From a virus, in IMG/VR virus record IMGVR_UViG_3300045125_000043, positions 1-45,473 of that record: 45,473 bases of DNA, one strand, 5' to 3'. The notes below the pieces were generated by a model. That model was given only the letters and a program-made list of their open reading frames with translations, was not told the DNA's origin and did no database searches. The first letter of the stretch is position 1; every line of letters starts with the position of its first letter. Shown piece by piece: positions 36,494 through 44,406 of the stretch. A program made the position numbers and the translations under genes.

Positions 36494-37130
36494 TTATTTG
36501 TCTACCTTACCACATCCACGGAATACAGTCAACATATATTCTAGGTTGGTTTCAAGCTGCTCTTTTGAGCCATCATTGTATAAATGATAATGGAAGTGTT
36601 GTCCAATCCAAGCCCATTCAGAAATATGGATGTCTGGATATCTCTTATACATTTCATACTTTTCATTTATGTTGTGATCATATGCTGTTTCATACCATTC
36701 TGGATCAGGCCCACGAATAACACGAACAACAAAGCCGCCCTTTCTTTTGATAGAAGTCAATCTCATTTGGAAATCTTACATCGGTAATCACAACATCCTT
36801 CATACCATGAATCTTGCGTTCCAGAGAATCAATCCAGATATTGTTTCCCAAAACATCACGACAGGCCTCTGTTCCAAATACCTGTAATGCCCATCGTGGA
36901 GTTACTTCATGACCGAATCTGGTACTCCGAAATCATCTGCCTTTTCTCTGAATGTTCTACTTTCATCGGTATCACCTTCCAAAAGATGCCGTGGCCAACC
37001 AAAGATTGGAAACCACAGCGTCTTTTAGATTGTCAACAAATGCTACCCTTTGAAAGTTGAACTTTGATACGAGAACATCACCTACAGTTCCTTTACCGGA
37101 ACCGATAAAACCAACAATACCTAATATCAT
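36494..37130 (-). CDS. Deoxynucleoside monophosphate kinase, T4 gp1-like (frameshifted)
   Basis: MILGIVGFIGSGKGTVGDVL has the P-loop GSGKGT. FVDNLKDAVVSIFGWPRHLL then EGDTDESRTFREKADD is a known signature of phage dNMP kinases. After indels: KGGFVVRVIRGPDPEWYETA, SEWAWIG and LEYMLTVFRGCGKVDK. It phosphorylates dNMPs to dNDPs for phage DNA synthesis. About 211 residues. Confidence 0.88.
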
Positions 37131-37543
37131 TTTATATGTCCCCAACTTTTGCCAGATATAACATGGTATACATATTTTTCATGTATATTAAATTTTTTAG
37201 CTATGTTTTTTCTTGGTTCACCTGATTCAAAAAGTTTTTTTATTTCAAAGAACATCATCAAGTTTGAGTTTGAATCCTGCTCTATTTTTTGAACCTTATC
37301 CATTACATTGTCATAATTGGTTCCAAGAAAAAGATGATCTGGATTTACACATGCTCGGTTATCACATTTATGTAGGACATGAATAGATTGGTCTGGCCAT
37401 TCACCATATGTCAAAAACCAGACCAATCTATTTGCTTTCACTTTTTTGCCTTTGTAAGTGAGTCTTCCATATCCACTATCTTTTCTTCCAGTCCATATCC
37501 AACAGGATTCGGTCTTGTTTACTTTGTTCCAAAACCGATCCAT
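37127..37543 (-). CDS. HNH homing endonuclease
   Basis: An intact 138-codon gene. MDRFWNKVNKTESCWIWTGR and LVWFLTYGEWPDQSIHVLHK then CDNRACVNPDHLFLGTNYDN form the HNH_3 domain with H and N catalytic residues and the zinc-like C..C pair. The C-terminus has a helix-turn-helix (NIAKKFNIHEKYVYHVISGK). Free-standing enzymes of this type cut a cognate phage site and spread their gene. It lies between a glycosyltransferase gene and the dNMP kinase gene, overlapping the latter start by 4 bases. Confidence 0.92.
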   Translation of the reverse strand: MDRFWNKVNKTESCWIWTGRKDSGYGRLTYKGKKVKANRLVWFLTYGEWPDQSIHVLHKCDNRACVNPDHLFLGTNYDNVMDKVQKIEQDSNSNLMMFFEIKKLFESGEPRKNIAKKFNIHEKYVYHVISGKSWGHIK

Positions 37544-38403: not shown

Positions 38404-38887
38404 TCAATTTACCCGTAAAGCAACTTGTCCCATTGCCTGATATAATAATCCATTTTTTCTACAAAAATCAGCCAAACCTTTTATTATAAATGCATCACCT
38501 GTTGGACTTACAATTTCCCACAATTTTGCCTGCCGGGTTGTTTTTCACCAAAAAGGTTTTTATTATGTGGGGTTTGTCCTTTTTTCTTATTACTTATTTT
38601 TTCTTTGATTCTTCTAAGTGTTTTTTACCATAAAAATGATTGTCTTTTCCGTATCTTTTCTTACGGTTCTTTGCACCAGTAGATTGTGATATCTTTATTG
38701 CCTCTGAGTTTGTTATCTGCCCAGATAACATTTGCCAAGCAATCTTGTCTTGCCATTTTCCATGCTGTTCATAAAGTTTTCTATAGGCTTCAGCATGTTC
38801 TTCAATAGTGAGTTCTACAAGATTTGATGGATCGTCTGTTCCGCCCATATGTTTAGGGATTATGTGATGTTTGTGATAAATAGTCAT
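38404..38887 (-). CDS. HNH homing endonuclease with NUMOD3-type motif
   Basis: Start MTIYHKHHIIPKHMGGTDDP then SNLVELTIEEHAEAYRKLYE then QHGKWQDKIAWQMLSGQI gives the HNH signature (HHI.P...GG.d...N...l...H). Then GKDNHFYGKKHLEESKKK and, after an indel, KGQTPHNKNLFGEKQPGRQN with NUMOD3-type basic repeats. The end reads GQVALRVN. About 161 residues. A late promoter lies upstream. It is common in T4-like phages as a mobile gene. Confidence 0.92.
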
Positions 38888-38946
38888 AGCTGATGCTCCT
38901 TGTAGCATTAGGGTGGTTGGATGCTGATGACATCGTGAACCACAAC

Positions 38947-38954
38947 TATTTATA
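38947..38954 (-). promoter_or_regulatory. T4-type late promoter (TATAAATA)
   Basis: Exact TATAAATA on the minus strand, about 60 bases upstream of the HNH start at 38887. It lies in a gap between the MoxR terminator and the HNH gene and so is a good late promoter candidate. Confidence 0.7.
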
Positions 38955-39020
38955 TTCATACTACATTCTCCATTCTGTATCATTATAACGGGAGTGCCAT
39001 CCGCTAGTATATATGTGCGA

Positions 39021-39068: not shown

Positions 39069-40388
39069 TTAGAACGCAATTTCATCTGTTGTCTTCTTCA
39101 CTGGAACCATAACTGAGTATTGACCCAACGCAGCATCAAAGGAAAGGGTATTGAACAGACTTGAATTGACAATACCAGAACCATCACTAAATGTCCATAA
39201 ACCACCTACACTAACCACAGTCTTCTTTTCAGCGGTTGGCTGTGCAGTAGCAGCAGGAGCACCAACTGTTTCGTCAATCTTTTTGTACAAATCCATGAAC
39301 GAGTTCTTAGTATCCATGTCAAAGCGATTGAGACACAACTGAATTGCCTTTTCACGGTTACCCTTGAGAGATTGTAAAGGCTTCGCAGATGTGAACCAGA
39401 CGACGAGTAGAAATGATTTCCGAGATTGCACCTTCGGCAAAAGTCTTACGAACAATCTCGGCCCAAGTCACAAGCTTATCAACAAATTTGTCGTCGGCCA
39501 TACCAGACTTGGCAAGCACTGCGTTGAGAATCTTTGCCTCAGTCTTTGCGTTGGGATATTCCTGCTCCATTGCTTAACAGAGAAACGCTCAAGGAACGCC
39601 TCGTTCATAACGTTGGTACCGATAAAGCGGCCATCGTCAGAACCCTTACCCTTGGTGTTGGCAGTAGCAACGATATTGGAAGCCAACAGCAGGAGCAACT
39701 ATACTCTGTTGATCTTTTTGAGATAGATGCCCTTGCCTTCAAGGATAGGCTGGAACACATCAACTTGTTAGAACCAAGATCAACCTCGTCAAGCAATAAA
39801 AGTGCACCACGCTCCATTGCGACAATGACTGGACGCCATTCTGCCACACGGTCTTACCGTCAATCAAACAGAAACCGCCAATCAAATCGTCTTCATCAGT
39901 TTCAATTGTAATGTTGACACGGATGCACTCACGCTTTTCGGCGGCACAAACCTGTTCAACCATCATTGTCTTACCGTTACCAGATAGGCCGGTAATATAC
40001 AGGGGATAGAACTTACGAGCAATGATAGAACGAACATCCTTGAAATGACCGAACGGAACATAACCAGCAACCTTTTCAGGCACAAGCGACACTTCGGTCG
40101 TTACAGTGGAATCAGACTTTACCAGAGAAAGAGCCATATTTACAGTTGCCTCATTATCCATTGTTACAGGGGCGGGTGTTACTACTGGTGCGGCAGCAAC
40201 AGGGCCAGAGAGAATACACACACCACGAGAAACACGCAATGTGGAATCATTCCAAAAGCCACGTAGGTAAACCAATACCAGATTCACTTACATACTTCGG
40301 TAACCTGCTGCCGAGTAATGCTTGTAATAGCACCATACTTTGCGGCAACAGCATCAGTAAACTTTTGACGGTCAACAGTCTTAGCCAT
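39069..40388 (-). CDS. cobS: AAA+ ATPase, CobS/MoxR type (frameshifted)
   Basis: N-terminus [20 protein letters not shown] then [14 protein letters not shown] is winged-helix-like, followed by a variable region. ATPase core: [20 protein letters not shown] (Walker A), [33 protein letters not shown] (Walker B), and, after breaks, [40 protein letters not shown] (sensor 2 and lid) and [14 protein letters not shown]-type helices. A linker with [12 protein letters not shown] leads to an extra C-terminal domain, [16 protein letters not shown]. About 439 residues. Marine T4-like phages carry such CobS-like genes. MoxR-type ATPases work with vWA partners, here the next gene upstream. Confidence 0.9.
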
Positions 40389-40420
40389 CTTTAGAACCTT
40401 TCTCTCATCATCATAAGAAT

Positions 40421-40449
40421 AATATATCACAGTGAAACAGGAAAGTCAA
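40421..40449 (-). promoter_or_regulatory. Sigma-70-type promoter for MoxR, with -35 in a hairpin arm
   Basis: TTGACT (40444-40449) and TATATT (40421-40426) are 17 bases apart, upstream of the MoxR start at 40388. The -35 lies within the 3' arm of the hairpin that ends the vWA gene. Confidence 0.75.
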
Positions 40450-40483
40450 GGGCTGATTTTATCAAATGTTTTCAGCCCTTGAC
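40445..40483 (-). terminator. Long perfect inverted repeat after the vWA gene
   Basis: GTCAAGGGCTGA and TCAGCCCTTGAC form a 12-bp perfect stem with a 15-base A/T-rich loop, nine bases past the vWA stop. A T-run is weak (TTGACTTTCC), so it may be a partial terminator or regulatory hairpin. Confidence 0.6.
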
Positions 40484-40491
40484 TAGTTGAC

Positions 40492-42704
40492 CTATGCAAC
40501 CCGACAAACCTTATCCATAAACTTGGACAGTAGCACTCGGTTTACAGTTTTCTTTTCGGCAAACTTGATAAAGGCACTTGCGAGTCTCTGCTTAGATATG
40601 CCAGGGGCAATGAACTCAAACTTATCAGCCGATTTAGTTTGAGAGTTGATGATGTAGTAATCATCATAGCCCTTGCTTGAAAATCGCAATGTAACCGTTA
40701 TCATTCCACTGTTTCTTATTCTCAGCATTGTATGGATCAAGCAAGTAACCGGCACCACGCAATGAACCACTATGAAGATAGAAAACCAATAACATTACTT
40801 TGTGTGCGATCCTTGAGAATCTTCAACAAGGTATCAGTCATAACCTGACCGTGCATACTATTGATATTATAGGACTTCTTCATAACGGTATCATTTATAA
40901 TATACATATTACCCTTTGGCTTGTGTGGTAAGTATGTTCTGCTTTGATCGTGGTAACCAGTAATAGAATCCGATCCACCATCAGTCAAGAAAATGGTATT
41001 CACACCCTGCAACTTATTTTTTACGAGAGTCATTGACGATACTTTCGTGCAACAACAATCGCTTGGTTGAGCGGTGTGGATTCCATCTTATCACAAGGAT
41101 AGTAAAGCCTATTCGTTGCGTGAGCAAACAGGATTTCAAATGCCTTGTTTAGAGTAGAAGGTGTTCATCCGTGAAGATGAGAATGTTTCGCAGTTTGGAA
41201 GTTATGAAATGTAATATCGTTTGTCTTATAATCAAACTGTTTACTAAATCTTTCCTGTGAGTCTGCCTCACGGAACAGATACACATCAAAGGAATCTGTA
41301 CTCGCTTACAGAACATCACAAGAGACTATCAACTGCTTCATTGTATATTCAATGTTATAGACCATTGAACCTGACCAATCAAGGAACATACAAGAGCCAT
41401 AGTTTTTACCCTCGGGCACTACCGATGTACGACAGGAAAATATCATCATTGTACTTGTATGTAAAACATTTTGTTTGTGTCAATAACACCAGTCTTAGCA
41501 ATACGAGTGCGAGAGTAAGCATCGGCACGCTTTTTCATTTCAAACTCTTTGACCATGAAAGAGATTGTGTCGTTTTCCTTTTGCTTGAATGTCACAAAGT
41601 TTTTCTGGGCACTCTGTACACTAGTCCAGTTAGACTTGTAACGAGCATACTCCTTTTCCATTTGTGGAATAACAACAGAAAAGTCATCAACAATGTATTT
41701 GACATCATACTTTGGAATTGTCAAATATACATAGTTGACATCATCTATTACGAACAATGGTATCTAAGTTTTTGTTAGCTGCCTTTTCAGTTTCACTATC
41801 TGGGATATCATTTTCTTCTGAGTCAAATGAACCGCCAACCTCACTATTCTTGCTTGGCTTTGACTTTACTTTTGATTCAGTTTCATCGTCATCGAGATTA
41901 CAGGTCTGCGTCACCATCGCCTTCATCACCATCAGCAACATCATCAGATTCATCGTCACCATCAGTGCTAACACTTCCAATACCATCATCAGAGTCATTG
42001 CTATCCTCACCATCACCATCAACATCTTCATAGTCAAAGTCAATGTCATCTTCATCAACTTCATCTAACTCAATATCATCAGATGTGGTTTGACTCTTGA
42101 TCTTATTGGCTTCAAGGCAGAACTTATAAACATCTTCGGTCAATGCAATCACATCTTCAAATGTTTCGGCACTATCAATGCGATTGACGAAAACCATTTC
42201 AGGGGCAGAAAACTTGATACCAAGTAACACGCCACCCTTGGAAGTACATATTGATACGGTCAATAAAATTGAAAGAGTTTACATCTTTGCCAAGCGTACC
42301 AAAGAAGTTGCGTTCAAACAGTTCCTTGTAACCAGCAACATAGTTGCGGCGTGAACCAGGATAACGACGCTTTTGACGCTTGTCAATACGAGCATCTTCA
42401 ATGACATTCATAAAGTTTTTGATAGCACCCCTTGCCTTATCAGGGTTTTCAGGGTGATACTTTTGGCAATAGCATTGATATGCTCAACCCGAGACCCTCA
42501 CCGGAGTATCCAACGCATGGCCCGTTTCGTGAACCACAAGCATATCGTACAAGTCGTCAGAATATTCTGCCACACGGGCAAAATAAGGTTGCGATTCTTC
42601 ACATCAGATGCAGCAGTCTTTGCACCGGGACTATGCATAACGGTAATATTTTCAGTGGCCAATAGTCGGGCCAACTGAGACTTGATTTGATTTGTTGCGG
42701 TCAT
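40492..42704 (-). CDS. Zincin-like plus vWA (MIDAS) protein, putative MoxR partner (frameshifted)
   Basis: N-terminus MTATNQIKSQLARLLATENI and MLVVHETGHALDTP (HExxH, plus 42517-42531). Then NFMNVIEDARIDKRQKRRYP then GSRRNYVAGYKELFERNFFG (E.ARI as third zinc ligand region). A long acidic linker (41880-42090, D/E-rich) follows. Next KNFVTFKQKENDTISFMVKE then FEMKKRADAYSRT (helical), and a vWA domain: FLDWSGSMVYNIEYT (MIDAS DxSxS, 41363-41380), ESTPLNQAI (MIDAS Thr), VNTIFLTDGGSDS (MIDAS Asp). C-terminus RVLLSKFMDKVCRVA. About 737 residues. CobT-like layout, but with an added peptidase-type motif. Many indels. Confidence 0.82.
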
Positions 42705-42729: not shown

Positions 42730-42757
42730 ATAATACCATATCCACGACCAAACACAA
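42730..42757 (-). promoter_or_regulatory. Promoter-like sequence upstream of the vWA gene
   Basis: TATTAT (42730-42735) preceded at 16 bases by a weaker TTGTGT (42752-42757). It is positioned about 25 bases ahead of the ATG at 42704, whose ribosome binding site is GAGAGGA. Confidence 0.45.
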
Positions 42758-42807
42758 CAAATAAAATTGCATAGCAGCCATGCTAAAAATGCATAACTAC
42801 ATACAAC

Positions 42808-43329: not shown

Positions 43330-44406
43330 TTATGGCTGGATAATAACTCCAACTATGATAATTGAGAGAAACACCCAACCCGTCTTAGAAAGTTCATACT
43401 GTAAACTCCCATAGCTAGAGAGCTCAAAATGCATATGATAGTAGAGCAGCACATGGAATAAGTAAGAATCCAAGCCACTACGATCTCTCGTGCATTTCTT
43501 CCACTTTACCTTTGGTTCAGGTTCGCTGGCACCTACACCAAGGATAGCACCTGTGATTGTATGAGTTGTGCTAACAGGAGTACCAACAGCACTGGCAACA
43601 AATAACATACCACTACCACCAGCCTGCCTTCAGCACTGAAACCACTAACACAGTTTAGACTTGTAAGTTTGAAACCAAGTGTTTGAACGATCTTCCATCC
43701 ACCAACTTAGAGTACCAAGACCCATAACAGTAAATGAAACAAACAACCCACATTGGAATGGCATCTTCTTTTGTAAGATAACCACCAGCAATCAAAAATT
43801 AAGAAAGATGATATAGCAGTCTTTTGAGCGTCATTGGCACCGTGGCCCCATTGAATAACATGCCGCTGAGACTATCTGTAATCTTTTGAACCATTTGTTT
43901 GTAGTTGATCTTTTCACATTGGAAACATGTTTTCGCATTGCTGTATGAATACCAGCACCAAGAATAAAACCCAATCATTGGGGCAACGATAATAAATGCT
44001 AGAATGGGATAAAAGCCAGGGAAGAATTGCTCCTGTACCAAAAGAAGGTACCGCTGCACCCATCAAACCACCAATCAAGGCGTGTGATGAACTTGTTGGC
44101 ATTACCAAATACCAAGTAATCATATTCCAGGTAATAGCACCCATCAAACAACCAAACACAACCTGTAGGGTGATTGCTTCAGGGGTGATAATGCCTTTAC
44201 CCATTGTCGCTGCTACTTTGAGAGTAATAAAGAATAACAATAAAATTAAAAAATGCTGCCATACAGACAGCTTGAAATTGTGTTAGTGTTTTTGTTGCCA
44301 CGACTGTTGCGATACTATTAGCAGCATCGTGGAATCCATTTAATGAAGTCAAATATCAAGGGCCGATAATGACCAACGCACAAGTTATATAAAATATTGT
44401 ATCCAT
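43330..44406 (-). CDS. PiT-family inorganic phosphate transporter (frameshifted)
   Basis: Membrane symporter of the PHO4/PiT family. Start MDTIFYITCALVIIGP at 44406, then NGFHDAANSIATVVATKTLT (first PiT GxHDxAN signature). Further: LVMPTSSSHALIGGLMGAAV then PSFGTGAI (S-S-S-H-A repeat motif), APMIGF, and the second signature YSMGHGANDAQKTAI. Near the end PVSTTHTITGAILGVGASEP is the second S/T-x-H repeat. About 359 residues, many indels. It would import phosphate (with H+ or Na+) into the infected cell, as an auxiliary metabolic gene. Confidence 0.88.

Follow-up and report, generated by a model that had tools for sequence, protein, structure and literature searches.

The gene cobS belongs to the cyanophage core (PMC3037559), and the locus studied here raises the question of what its product does together with that of the adjacent gene. 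The locus lies in IMGVR_UViG_3300045125_000043, a virus contig of 45,473 bases that we refer to as a whole as the window. An earlier note had read there a MoxR/CobS-type ATPase paired with a protein that joins an HETGH zincin motif, an acidic linker and a vWA domain with a full MIDAS, and had favoured a MoxR/vWA-controlled protease over a cobalt chelatase. Such a machine is not a new idea: in 2021 the pairing of MoxR with a metallopeptidase-vWA protein in group 2.2 jumbo phages was proposed to be a virion-assembly co-chaperone system (PMC7824862), and a contrary report called the 'peptidase' label a mistake and proposed CobN hijacking (PMC8651126). Our analysis gives about an even chance to the reading that a CobS-type motor powers a protease or remodeller of the zincin-vWA kind during takeover or replication.

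The CobS-type ATPase and its zincin-vWA partner

Small indels occur throughout the window (1-45473) and break many of its genes; the pattern is typical of an unpolished long-read assembly. Over the pair, alignment with the related contig L023 gave 93% identity across 3,859 bp with 45 gap openings, or about one per 86 bp. All motifs of the architecture described in the note were read on the minus strand at 39069-42704, and they never fall within a single ORF of the window because they lie in different frames. In L023, the partner is one ORF of 734 aa and the ATPase one ORF of 438 aa, with the same motifs and about 100 nt between them. The fragmentation in the window is therefore most simply explained by sequencing error, and the observation is real rather than an artefact of joined unrelated genes; the zincin and vWA domains belong to one protein. 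Domain analyses were run on intact relatives, and the broken genes of the window were left as read. Residue numbers refer to the L023 protein, and invariance was scored in 47 non-redundant full-length homologues of the same family. The T4-type capsid gene gp23 was present in all ten related contigs tested, indicating that the relatives are T4-like; the window itself is assigned to a T4-like aquatic phage.

The ATPase gene (39072-40388, minus strand; intact homologue L023:8068-9384) is split by indels, and its pieces match phrog_249, annotated 'porphyrin biosynthesis', in a profile search (E 3e-33). We located Walker A (GLSGNGKT, 39990-39967), Walker B (LLLLDEVD, 39802-39779), sensor 1 (39668-39642), the Arg finger (AFLERF, 39599-39582) and sensor 2 (STRRLVH, 39411-39391), all on the minus strand and accompanied by an AAA_5 domain. 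These features, together with matches to solved CobS (6.8e-31) and to CbbQ/NorQ, identify an AAA+ ATPase of the CobS/CbbQ/NorQ type.

The partner gene (40495-42704, minus strand; intact homologue L023:5761-7965) is likewise split by indels, and its pieces match phrog_459, 'peptidase', with E-values down to 1.6e-24. Its zinc-binding HExxH motif reads HETGHA (42514-42531; H59, E60 and H63) and is invariant, as are N100, E103, D104 and R106. The helix bearing E103, which is the putative third zinc ligand, reads NVIEDARIDK (42379-42408). An acidic linker follows (41928-42077, about 43% D/E in that piece), and the AlphaFold model gave pLDDT below 50 for residues 208-297, a region thus predicted to be disordered. 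The vWA domain (40977-41380) carries the complete MIDAS in DWSGSM (41380-41363), STPLN (41080-41066) and LTDG (40988-40977), all on the minus strand, and D441, S443, S445, T541 and D573 do not vary in the 47 homologues. Besides the DxSxS...T...D signature, the C-terminal part has the vWA fold, and matches in a fold search with the full-length model include the vWA domain of NorD bound to its MoxR partner NorQ. A PDB sequence search with profiles of the vWA protein returned nothing meaningful. BrxL and Toxin_10 came up among the Pfam matches of the window pieces, but only weakly, and were discarded.

The N-terminal domain and its kinship with CobT

Because vWA domains took up most of the matches when the full-length model was used as the query, the N-terminal domain was modelled alone (pLDDT 86.8, pTM 0.84). 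In this model, HExxH sits on helix 50-66 and E103 on helix 88-114, both after three short strands. The fold matches in the PDB include jannalysin (probability 0.98), abylysin (0.97), selecase and ArdC, and the ten best rows are all zincins, with weak E-values of which the best is only 0.05. The model thus predicts a zincin fold of the minigluzincin-like kind. The downstream glutamate that the note had suggested looking for is present as E103, whose invariance and position on the following helix of the model make it a putative zinc ligand.

When the domain was compared with predicted viral proteins, the significant matches bearing a name were vWA and CobT proteins of phages, with haloarchaeal tailed viruses among the sources. 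Profile comparison with six CobT proteins of phages and phage-plasmids, among them a Klebsiella phage pJN2-26 protein that is a clear member of Pfam CobT and CobT_C, gave 96% (E 2.7e-9) for the N-terminal domain and 97.6% (E 4.7e-12) for the vWA parts. The N-terminal alignment pairs HETGH with HEVGH and NVIEDARIDK with NALEDVYIER. A partner unrelated to CobT, as might be read from the note, is thus not what we found. In a direct profile comparison, the N-terminal domain and cellular CobT did not match significantly (1%, E 0.054), so the link to CobT rests on the phage proteins as a bridge. HExxH was absent at this position from all 30 cellular CobT proteins examined, and those with the region printed read EQARVE in the downstream helix. 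Given the homology of both domains to phage CobT and this pattern of HExxH absence, the partner is, as judged from sequence, a CobT-family protein with a zincin N-domain, and the N-domain of the cobalt chelatase CobT looks like a degenerate form. The pair thereby resembles the cobaltochelatase CobS-CobT in its CobS-type AAA+ ATPase and in both partner domains, which are homologous directly to phage CobT and via phage CobT to cellular CobT.

Three of the six CobT proteins of phages and phage-plasmids lack the histidines yet keep the vWA domain and the CobS partner, so catalysis would not be universal in the wider family. In L111, L112 and L113, both zinc histidines are lost, and the HExxH glutamate and the downstream glutamate are kept. 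CobT-like vWA proteins with HExxH also lie beside DUF3150 genes, as in integrative elements (L151:2022-3683, also with RadC; L152:2055-4280; L157:1634-3463). Some bacterial DUF2201 (PF13203) proteins similarly combine HExxH with a neighbouring MoxR-type ATPase gene (L178, L180, L181 and L182), but their downstream motif is ACDxxVN-like, in place of NVxEDxRIE/D in the window family, and PF13203 (DUF2201_N) matched neither the window nor the intact L023 protein.

The pair also shares a CbbQ/NorQ-type ATPase and a MIDAS vWA partner with the activases NorQ-NorD and CbbQ-CbbO. The clients of NorD and CbbO are metalloenzymes. By this likeness, the zinc of the zincin domain might be only structural or peptide-binding and the pair a chaperone or activase; the retention of the pair with several histidine-less phage CobT homologues would suit such a role, as would the fact that the well-studied MoxR-vWA systems are remodellers (PMC7159879). 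A structural zinc site would have no need of Glu60, however, and the invariance of this residue along with all three presumed ligands in the T4-like family counts against a purely non-proteolytic pair, which we consider unlikely, if the best placed of the alternatives.

Gene neighbourhood and promoters

The note suggested searching other phages for the fusion, and it is not peculiar to this one. A tblastn search with the Sf-CH5 proteins found the partner in 463 phage records, 458 of them covering 80% or more of the protein, and the ATPase, at this same coverage, in 460; the counts for Synechococcus, Prochlorococcus and Pelagibacter phages were equal for the two proteins. The pair, with some 460 cyanophage-type records, was known before, as the usual 'peptidase'-cobS combination in T4-like cyanophages and pelagiphages. 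The window pair belongs to this set, with 'peptidase' corresponding to phrog_459 (T4-GC 146) and CobS to phrog_249 (T4-GC 150), and is alike in family, order, strand and neighbourhood. Nothing essential differs, although the window lineage adds a phosphate permease gene of the PHO4/PiT type (PF01384, 4.1e-87 in L023) between gp46 and the pair (window 43431-44406, minus strand; L023:3781-4776). Of 91 related loci, just 2 were found to have a homologue of this permease. Two HNH endonuclease-like ORFs (38597-38983 and 37130-37543, both minus strand), possibly homing endonucleases, are located close to the 3' end of the ATPase gene.

The ATPase gene is the next gene after the partner on the same strand in all 81 loci where both are readable. 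Among the IMG/VR loci whose length allows a reading, 69 of 70 have gp46 upstream and 64 of 67 a sliding clamp gene downstream, placing the pair between gp46 and gp45 and away from the structural genes. Homologous pairs of several other phage groups also have replication or recombination neighbours (DnaE, ligase, primase); no such neighbourhood was visible around the pair in Roseobacter phage CRP-810 or Tsukamurella phage TIN2. In Staphylococcus phage A5W, which encodes the ATPase, the two neighbours tested carry neither HExxH nor a vWA MIDAS.

A sigma-70-type promoter precedes the ATPase gene (40421-40449, minus strand), with TTGACT (40449-40444) and TATATT (40426-40421) separated by 17 bp. 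Of 39 non-redundant relatives, 30 have the pattern TTGAC-N15-19-TANANT ahead of cobS, against 0.12 expected. Upstream of the partner gene, a weaker promoter-like site (42730-42760, minus strand) consists of TTGTTG, a 19-bp spacer and TATTAT, and the strict pattern was found in 13 of 45 non-redundant relatives, against 0.11 expected. Directly after the partner gene, a terminator-like inverted repeat, AAGGGCTGA ... TCAGCCCTT (40448-40480, minus strand; read by eye and unscored), overlaps the -35 box. The T4-type late motif NATAAATA was absent upstream of both genes in the upstream regions examined and was found at -50 of gp23 in the closest relative, an imperfect control that is limited because the motif precedes no more than 3 of 9 capsid genes. 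From sequence, the promoters, the lack of the late motif and the recombination and clamp neighbours speak for early or middle action rather than virion assembly. The literature searched gave no transcription timing or virion proteomics for the pair, and no other expression or biochemical results on it turned up.

Head maturation in T4-like phages involves proteolysis, which counts for a role in the particle, with the MoxR-vWA pair as chaperone and co-chaperone and the zincin processing structural proteins. This is the proposal of PMC7824862, which has a matching architecture and was argued by analogy with Acidianus two-tailed virus. The domain architecture and pairing described there match those of the window pair; that pair was described for group 2.2, whereas cyanophages are group 2.1. 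Our evidence supports the metallopeptidase identity and extends it to the cyanophage family. The assembly role itself appears improbable, since sigma-70-type promoters without the late motif precede both genes and the pair stands outside the structural genes.

Cobalamin and the proposed mechanism

Least probable among the readings weighed is that of PMC8651126, in which viral CobST hijacks host CobN to make cobalamin for a B12-dependent ribonucleotide reductase and the zincin is misnamed: it accords with the CobS and CobT homology, but HExxH is invariant in the window family and missing from the cellular CobT examined, the equivalog cut-offs are far from reached (82.9 versus 558.6 bits for TIGR01650, CobS; 9.6 versus 759 bits for TIGR01651, CobT), and CobN was found in none of ten related phage contigs. 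E. coli, Klebsiella and Salmonella, moreover, have phages and phage-plasmids with homologous pairs, and no CobN turned up in the E. coli control, which argues against hijacking of CobN. Some relatives of the window encode an RTPR-like class II, adenosylcobalamin-dependent reductase, with scores just below the NCBIfam cut-off (L162:233-2161 in G305; L163:4-1899 in G308), and G305 and others have it without the class I small subunit, which makes a B12 link more plausible; the cyanophage-type contig L015, however, combines the pair with a class I reductase. Part of the literature seems to mistake phage CobS for the cobalamin synthase that shares its name; PMC2984593, for example, gives CobS the final step of cobalamin synthesis. 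Among 299 genomes of one bacterial phylum, of unchecked completeness, 26 of the 93 with a CobT match had no CobN match. Even cellular CobT may therefore not be tied to CobN, a hint that other clients may exist for the CobST of cells.

The preference of the note for a protease over a chelatase thus fits the data better, by the missed cut-offs, the invariant HExxH and the lack of CobN, and the interpretation in the note is partly supported overall; proteolysis is a prediction from motif and model. For a motor-driven zincin-vWA protease count the invariant metal sites, the zincin fold matches, the strict adjacency, the HExxH-less cellular CobT, the absence of CobN, the promoters and the neighbourhood; against it count the weak PDB E-values, the histidine-less phage CobT, the homology to CobT and the adenosylcobalamin-type reductase of the relatives. 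By analogy with its homologues, the CobS/MoxR-type ATPase would form a ring, and, as in other MoxR-vWA systems, the partner would dock on this ring and hold clients via its MIDAS. The gluzincin-type N-domain on its acidic tether, judging from HExxH plus Glu and the predicted fold, would then cut, or at least bind, the client. Both genes are apparently transcribed early or middle from host-type promoters within the replication/recombination block, which would make host or phage proteins encountered in takeover or in DNA replication, rather than components of the virion, the most likely clients. A broader idea, possible but more tentative, is that the 'CobT' proteins of phages and mobile elements are early motor-driven zincin proteases and that the chelatase CobT is a relative whose N-domain degenerated and lost the zinc site; on that view, the long-standing riddle of why phages carry cobS would come down to the misnaming of a protease that remodels proteins.

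New here are the metal-site invariance, the minigluzincin-like model, the homology to phage CobT, the promoter type and location, and the pair in E. coli phages; collectively, the evidence disfavours both published functions, virion assembly and CobN hijacking. The chelatase and the metallopeptidase co-chaperone readings predict opposite outcomes that single point mutants could separate. A core gene in T4-like cyanophages, cobS is routinely listed among the auxiliary metabolic genes for vitamin B12. Should the two proteins form a motor-driven protease, many ecological claims of phage-aided B12 synthesis would be wrong.
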